DNA from: Prochlorococcus sp. AG-670-N10
GTDB lineage: Bacteria > Cyanobacteriota > Cyanobacteriia > PCC-6307 > Cyanobiaceae
Direction: 5' to 3'
Assembly (NCBI GenBank): GCA_003209065.1
Contig: QCSX01000003.1
Span: forward strand, 1-64,000
Length of the DNA stretch: 64,000 nt
The translations under genes were made by a program, and so were the position numbers. Under the pieces are notes generated by a model that was not told the DNA's origin, ran no database searches, and saw only the letters and a list, made by a program, of their open reading frames with translations. Shown one piece after another: positions 33,802 through 35,252 of this stretch (position 1 is its first letter; each line of letters begins with the position of its first letter).

Positions 33802-34056
33802 CTAATTCAGTAATAAGTCCAGTTTGTCCTCTTTTTCTAATTCATAAAGTTCGTCACAACCACCAATACTTTTGTCATCAATGAAAATTTGTGGAACTGT
33901 TCTTTTACCATTAGCTCTCTCCATCATGAGTTCCCTTGCATTATCATCGCCATCTATTTTATGTTCAGTAAAAGTTATATTTTTTTTCCCAAGTAAAGAT
34001 TTCGCCCGTATGCAGAATGGGCAAAATCGCCAAGTATAAATTTCAACTTTAGACAT
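33802..34056 (-). CDS. grxC: Glutaredoxin 3
   Basis: CPFC active site, [18 protein letters not shown]. Confidence 0.95.
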
Positions 34057-34132
34057 TTTTTTAAAATATTATTTACTTTATACTATTAAATAAAAGTGCT
34101 TGTTAGATTATAAATAACAATTAAATTCTATT

Positions 34133-35252
34133 TTGATAGATATAACAGAATTTAAAAAAGATCTTTCAGAGTTAACCAAGCGCCTGGGTAATGCTCAGGA
34201 TTGTCTTTGACGTCCCCAATTTAATAGCTAAGAAAAAAGAGTTAGAGCAAATTGCTGCTCAACCAGAATTCTGGGTTAATCAGGCATATGCAAAAAAACA
34301 TATGCTCAACCTTGATGATGTTAGAGATCAACTTCAATTGTTAGATAAATGGAAAATGTTCATTTCTGATGCTGAAGCTTCTCTTGAGCTTTATTCCTTA
34401 GAGCCTGAAGAAGAAATGATTGTTGAGTCACATCAAGGTTTAGTTACTTTAAGAGAGAATTTAGATAAGTGGGAATTCCAAAGATTATTATGTGGTGAAT
34501 ATGATAAAGAAGCTGCTATCGTCTCTATTAATGCTGGTGCAGGTGGCACTGATGCACAAGATTGGGTGGAAATTCTATTAAGAATGTATTCAAGATGGGC
34601 AGATAATAATGGAATGAGCTTAGAAATTACTGATTTATCTGATGGAGAAGAAGCAGGTATTAAAAGCGTTACTTTTGAAGTTAACGGTAAATATGCTTAT
34701 GGTTATCTTCAAAATGAAAAAGGTACTCATAGATTAGTAAGAATCTCACCGTTTAATGCAAATGGTAAAAGACAAACTAGTTTCGCTGGAGTTGAGGTTA
34801 TGCCTAAATTAGATCAAAGTATTTCATTAGATATTCCTGATAAAGATTTAGAAATAACAACTAGTAGATCAGGCGGAGCTGGAGGACAAAACGTTAATAA
34901 AGTAGAAACAGCAGTAAGGATTGTACATTTGCCTTCAGGAATCGCTGTAAGATGTACTCAAGAGAGATCTCAGTTACAAAATAAGGAGAAAGCAATGTTA
35001 TTGCTTAAAGCTAAATTATTAGTAATAGCTAAAGAACAAAGAGCTTCTGAAATATCAGATATTAAAGGTGATATTGTTGAAGCTGCATGGGGTACTCAAA
35101 TTAGAAATTATGTTTTTCATCCCTATCAAATGGTCAAAGATTTAAGAACAATGAAAGAGACTAATGATTTAGATGCAGTTCTTAATGGTGGATTAGATCA
35201 ATTTATTCATGAATTATTACGTATGAATATTTCTTCTAAAGAGTCTATTTAA
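34133..35252 (+). CDS. prfB: Peptide chain release factor 2, join(34133..34207,34209..35252) through a programmed +1 frameshift
   Basis: Zero frame [25 protein letters not shown] then TGA; +1 at CTT continues [14 protein letters not shown]...; [16 protein letters not shown] class I RF motif (GGQ). Confidence 0.93.
34194..34211 (+). promoter_or_regulatory. prfB: Programmed +1 frameshift site CTCAGGATTGTCTTTGAC (slip CTT, in-frame TGA, C)
   Basis: CTTTGAC matches the conserved bacterial prfB recoding heptamer; frame change is required to join the two halves. Confidence 0.92.

Follow-up and report, generated by a model that had tools for sequence, protein, structure and literature searches.

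A conserved RNA hairpin at the prfB frameshift site of oxygenic cyanobacteria probably takes the place of the Shine-Dalgarno stimulator

Most bacteria make release factor 2 (RF2), the product of prfB, by a programmed slip of the ribosome at CUU UGA C, which is the textbook example of how an internal Shine-Dalgarno (SD) sequence acts on an elongating ribosome. In the prfB gene of E. coli, this SD is located three nucleotides upstream of the slip site (PMC5009743). A survey published in 2025, covering more than 12,000 genomes, found the elements of the RF2 frameshift to be almost completely conserved, described the internal SD as hyper-conserved and inferred that the SD-type prfB cassette is ancestral to bacteria (PMC12421855). 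The prfB frameshift itself is thus of a known kind, and the literature surveys describe the SD alone as its stimulator (PMC12421855, PMC5009743).

Stem-loops on the 5' side of a recoding site have been studied in other settings. An artificial hairpin upstream of CUUUGA, assayed in an E. coli 70S extract, produced about 60% of the effect of the SD on the +1 shift, and did so only when RF2 was left out; this hairpin had 12 bp, and a weaker version of it stimulated less (PMC6321510). In T4 gene 60, a 5' stem-loop at the ribosomal exit was proposed to pull the mRNA, and upstream stem-loops elsewhere were proposed to serve as insulators or pause elements (PMC5009743). Here we describe a prfB locus from Prochlorococcus in which a hairpin occupies the position of the SD, and compare it to prfB loci throughout the cyanobacteria and their sister classes.

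The prfB slip site and its conservation

The stretch of DNA that was analysed (64,000 nucleotides, termed the window) belongs to a Prochlorococcus genome (31% G+C), and its nearest relatives (98–99% in RF2) are named Prochlorococcus. A preliminary description of this stretch had proposed that prfB is opened by a TTG, is interrupted by a TGA and is continued after a +1 shift at CTTTGAC. The sequence contains this arrangement: the zero-frame ORF that starts with the TTG ends after 25 codons at an early in-frame stop that is readable by RF2, in an otherwise intact prfB (Table 1). CTTTGAC (34205–34211) is found at the end of ORF1, i.e. CUU U(GA) followed by C, and a +1 shift at this site leads into the main ORF, in the frame DVPNLIAKK. 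Joining the 25 residues of ORF1 to the RF2 frame gives a protein of 372 amino acids that scores 456.8 bits against the NCBIfam model TIGR00020 prfB (cut-off, 370 bits) and matches it from position 2. Solved RF2 structures (PDB) align across the frameshift junction. The N-terminal segment that the ORF track had missed is therefore real, although the term "exon-like", which was applied to it in the preliminary description, is merely a figure of speech.

The bare CTTTGAC heptamer is common, with seven occurrences in the window compared to 7.1 expected by chance; its significance lies in position and conservation, not in rarity. In order to follow its conservation, we searched for RF2 at three levels, in 121 genomes from the genus, 200 from the family and 146 from the phylum, and added 80 named loci. 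The preliminary description had let its reading depend on the presence of CTTTGAC in related genomes and had suggested a comparison with cyanobacterial prfB. CTTTGA was found in frame and at the same place in all 265 oxygenic cyanobacterial prfB loci whose upstream region was extracted, and the zero-frame peptide is conserved throughout the relatives together with the slip site. The site is kept in AT-rich Prochlorococcus as well as in the GC-rich Synechococcus WH7803 (L091) and Cyanobium (L110). In six loci (L260, L270–L272, L280 and L281) the base after UGA is G, T or A, and not the near-universal C.

Judging from these comparisons, prfB is expressed here, as in oxygenic cyanobacteria generally, via an obligatory +1 frameshift at CUU UGA C. 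This frameshift would serve the autoregulation of RF2, as the identity of the stop codon, UGA, and published work on other bacteria suggest. At the start of the gene (34133–34135 and the homologous position), TTG or GTG is the rule in Cyanobiaceae and ATG is usual in other cyanobacteria, which suggests that the prfB start of the Cyanobiaceae is persistently weak.

Table 1 Features of the prfB frameshift region in the window.
Feature	Positions	Strand	Description
Zero-frame ORF1 of prfB	34133–34210	+	TTG start, 25 codons, TGA stop
Conserved RNA hairpin	34183–34199	+	5' arm 34183–34189 CCUGGGU, loop 34190–34192 AAU, 3' arm 34193–34199 GCUCAGG
Spurious annotated start ATG	34191–34193	+	in the hairpin loop and pairing region; not conserved
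Residual AGGA, weak SD-like tetramer	34197–34200	+	overlaps the hairpin's 3' arm; anti-SD pairing energy −4.1 kcal/mol
5-nt spacer, stem to slip codon	34200–34204	+	includes E-site codon UGU; length constant in the loci
Slip site CUU U	34205–34208	+	predicted move of P-site tRNA-Leu from CUU to UUU; CTTTGA in 265/265 loci
UGA stop plus C	34208–34211	+	RF2-read stop in a weak termination context; fourth base is C in nearly all loci
RF2 main frame	34209–35252	+	GAC 34209 to TAA; TIGR00020 match, PDB RF2 matches

A hairpin next to the slip site

The SD-like element before the slip site had been described as weak, and this is borne out: the value for AGGA compares with −10.7 kcal/mol for the E. 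coli-like AGGGGGUAU. No internal SD resembling AGGGGG or AGGAGG is present three nucleotides before CTT, where the window has CAGGATTGT. No canonical SD was found elsewhere upstream, and over the 14 nt that precede CTT the anti-SD pairing reaches about −4 kcal/mol at best. The reason, which the preliminary description missed, would be the conserved hairpin that stands in the place of the SD.

The nucleotides that precede the slip, CGCCUGGGUAAUGCUCAGGAUUGU, contain a mismatch-free 7-bp hairpin that folds at −9.0 kcal/mol. Its stem ends 5 nt before CTT, which puts a stable hairpin adjoining the E site upstream of the slip. Only two comparable stems of 7 bp with a 3-nt loop exist on both strands of the window, one of them being the prfB hairpin, and none of the other plus-strand CTTTGA sites in the window is preceded by such a stem. 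When a region of 100 nt was folded as a whole, no significant structure was obtained (z 0.17), since the surroundings are AT-rich; for 26 nt of the window sequence alone, the z-score is only −1.92. Positions 34050–34350 gave no match to the curated RNA families of Rfam at E up to 1. The signal of the hairpin is local and comparative.

The block CGCCTGRG-NNNNN-CYCAGGA-NTNT-CTTTGAC recurs in relatives throughout the class, dozens of genera beyond the family among them. A strict hairpin pattern was detected in 346 of 390 Cyanobacteriia genomes, which represent 140 of 155 genera; the same pattern reversed, as a control, gave no hits. RF2 was not recovered in three of the 44 genomes missed by the pattern, and most of the others carry near-variants that differ only in having TGC or TAC as the E-site codon, a G-U pair in the stem or an outer pair that is open. 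In the relatives the E-site codon is UAU or UGU, and the spacer is fixed at 5 nt except where the stem has been lost. The sequence of the loop is not conserved. For the 25 nt that precede CTT, the median minimum free energy is −11.3 in cyanobacteria versus −4.0 in the sister classes of the phylum (L199–L215), which we take to be non-photosynthetic.

A consensus fold was calculated with RNAalifold from an alignment of 93 non-redundant sequences (<90% identical, 87 columns). The prfB stem was the sole predicted structure (−6.5 kcal/mol), compared to a mean of −0.02 and a best value of −1.05 kcal/mol for column-shuffled alignments. The seven pairs of the stem form in 95, 99, 100, 99, 96, 95 and 78% of the 93 sequences, with exchanges among G-C, G-U and A-U and among C-G, U-A and U-G. 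Pair five is G-C in 57 sequences, G-U in 19 and A-U in 13, with no case of A-C. For the innermost pair, the counts are 35 for C-G, 28 for U-A and 9 for U-G. Pair counts were above those of shuffled and slid controls (32 distinct blocks). A tree-controlled test for independent pairs gave 2.1 same and 0 opposite changes for pair 5, and 1.9 same and 0.2 opposite changes for pair 7; these rest on few independent events and are not significant. Since several of the stem pairs show little variation, some of the conservation could be specific to the sequence. Comparison shows the hairpin to be a conserved element; its function we infer.

Alternative explanations for the conserved block

The stimulator might still be an internal SD, namely AGGA, with the hairpin being incidental or a by-product. 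AGGA is present in most cyanobacterial prfB sites, the anti-SD is intact in the genome of the window (CACCTCCTTT, GGATCACCTCCTTT), and some pairing is possible (−4 to −7 kcal/mol). Moreover, two loci that have lost the stem retain such a sequence, GAGGA in L088 and CAGGA in L283. However, a residual SD leaves unexplained both the constraint on the 5' arm (CGC CTG) and the paired changes, and its AGG is sequestered by the 3' arm of the hairpin. In L261, L265 and L278, AGGA is changed to AGCA and anti-SD pairing is essentially nil (0.0 to +1.2 kcal/mol), yet the inner stem is kept. The median anti-SD pairing is −4.0 kcal/mol in cyanobacteria versus −10.6 kcal/mol in the sister classes. The latter carry a canonical SD before CTTTGA (AGGAGG-CAT, GGGAGG-TCT, AAGGAG-TGT or AGGGGG-TTG), and the prfB hairpin is absent from them (L199–L215). 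We consider it unlikely that AGGA is the stimulator. One family of the sister classes (L210, L211) has AGGGGG-TTG-CTTTGAT, with TTG as the E-site codon and T after the stop.

The hairpin may also be real and act in another way: as an insulator that prevents pairing of the slip site, as a pause element before the slip, or as a site for mRNA processing or for a regulator. The first two of these roles have precedents among the stem-loops of other systems (PMC5009743). The fixed distance of 5 nt and the location at the very place of the SD in the sister classes argue instead for an action on the ribosome at the slip, and an unconserved loop also speaks against such a role, which we regard as distinctly improbable.

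A further possibility is that the block owes its conservation to the encoded protein or nascent peptide (R-L-G/S-x-A/T-Q-D-Y/C-L), for example a stalling peptide. The residues R, L, Q and D are indeed well conserved, but synonymous positions are conserved far above codon usage. In 54 genomes with full genes, the synonymous excess over the codon usage of the same gene corresponds to z-scores of 8.6 for CGC, 13.2 for CTG, 9.2 for CAG and 7.2 for GAC. CTG was found in 52 of the 54 compared to 13.3 expected, and CAG in 50 compared to 20.5 expected; in the window, the shares within the respective codon families are 2.1% for CGC (arginine), 2.6% for CTG (leucine) and 16.8% for CAG (glutamine). GAC after the slip has a z-score of 8.8, similar in size to those of the hairpin-block codons, and codons outside the cassette are mostly under 4, with two near 5–6. 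Third positions track their pairing partner, and the change from Gly to Ser is accompanied by a compensating change of a third base. At the five informative positions, pairing-preserving synonymous choices exceed the codon usage of each gene by z 6–10; third-position controls range from −3 to +3, some of them reaching about 3. This constraint is strong evidence against the peptide sequence being the sole cause. The nascent-peptide explanation was rejected on this ground, and we hold it to be very improbable.

Finally, initiation of RF2 at ATG 34191 (MLRIVF...) with no frameshift, the start given by mechanical ORF calling, was rejected and is practically out of the question: this ATG is missing from most cyanobacteria (e.g. 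CGCCTGGGTAAAACCCAGG in L120–L138) and the version that starts with it (449.8 bits) matches TIGR00020 only from position 12, whereas the peptide of the zero frame is conserved and can be aligned to the N-termini of RF2, both in family models and in solved structures. ORF calling produced the six residues MLRIVF as an artefact. They had been assigned to the wrong frame; their frame is in fact that of RF2, but they precede the slip and so would not belong to the real protein.

Proposed mechanism and comparison with known systems

We propose that in oxygenic cyanobacteria generally the SD stimulator has probably been replaced by an RNA hairpin of 6–7 bp, the base of which is located 5 nt before the slip codon. 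It also seems fairly likely that, in the ancestor of oxygenic cyanobacteria, a stimulator that pairs with rRNA gave way to a hairpin within the mRNA itself, with the same mechanical role at the ribosome exit. Because the SD-type cassette was inferred to be ancestral to bacteria (PMC12421855), the simplest history would be a replacement of the SD by the hairpin on the stem of the oxygenic cyanobacteria.

With CUU positioned in the P site, the stem ends at its 3' base six positions upstream of the first base of the slip codon, and two nucleotides separate it from the E-site codon. This is almost exactly where the SD:anti-SD helix sits in E. coli. Passage of the ribosome would unwind the hairpin, which could refold at the mRNA exit adjoining the E site once CUU occupies the P site and UGA the A site. 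Closing of the lowest stem pairs would then pull or strain the mRNA in the 5' direction by one base, and this strain may loosen the pairing in the E and P sites. Re-pairing of tRNA-Leu with UUU would be favoured when RF2 is scarce and termination is slow. The frameshift is established by comparison; stimulation by the hairpin and the zippering step are what we infer.

The stem is broken in the Prochlorococcus loci L088, L089 (Prochlorococcus sp. W8) and L283, and in L217 of a related genus. CTTTGAC is kept in all four, so the hairpin is not a strict requirement everywhere. Both the hairpin and any SD-like sequence are missing from L089 and L217. The tRNA for CUU in the genome of the window is tRNA-Leu(AAG) (L318; G000:C33:7295-7378). 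Prochlorococcus and several neighbouring genera use tRNA-Leu(AAG) to read CUU, and other Cyanobiaceae genera use tRNA-Leu(GAG) (L321–L349); the genome that is the source of L217 (G298) carries tRNA-Leu(AAG) (L325). An A at position 34 could pair with U in CUU as well as in UUU, which might make the slip easier; we note this as a lead only.

An earlier description of a hairpin in cyanobacterial prfB was not found in the literature searched, which did not cover older work on RF2 sites, and priority is uncertain. The hairpin appears to be a previously undescribed way to drive a well-known frameshift. If the proposal is true, the best-studied bacterial recoding event would include a natural, class-wide and SD-independent stimulator of +1 frameshifting. 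A class-wide exchange of SD for hairpin would be a natural experiment on whether a specific rRNA contact is needed or any duplex wedged on the E-site side will do. It would also explain the regulation of prfB in cyanobacteria, correct the N-termini of RF2 proteins that were called from an internal ATG, and provide frameshift predictors with a second type of stimulator. The stem-less lineages and the change of the tRNA-Leu anticodon occur in the same part of the family, and make the question open to a comparative test.

The SD-stimulated prfB of the E. coli type (PMC12421855; PMC5009743, Fig. 12) shares with the cyanobacterial gene a UGA at about codon 26, CUU U, a C after the stop, RF2 in the +1 frame and the spacer codon UAU or UGU. 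It differs in that its AGGGGG or AGGAGG three nucleotides upstream is missing here, and the cyanobacterial genes have a hairpin with paired changes five nucleotides upstream. The artificial hairpin that mimics the SD (Huang, Cho and Chang 2018, PMC6321510) is likewise located by the E site, upstream of the same CUUUGA. It is an engineered 12-bp reporter stem with a measured effect, whereas the cyanobacterial hairpin is natural, class-wide, 6–7 bp long and known from comparison; we propose that it may be the natural form of such an upstream-hairpin stimulator. In the bypassing of T4 gene 60 (PMC5009743), an mRNA stem-loop at the ribosomal exit, on the 5' side, is also thought to pull the mRNA in a forward slip. 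T4 gene 60, however, bypasses a long coding gap, with another take-off signal and a contribution of the nascent peptide, and the cyanobacterial shift is of one nucleotide.
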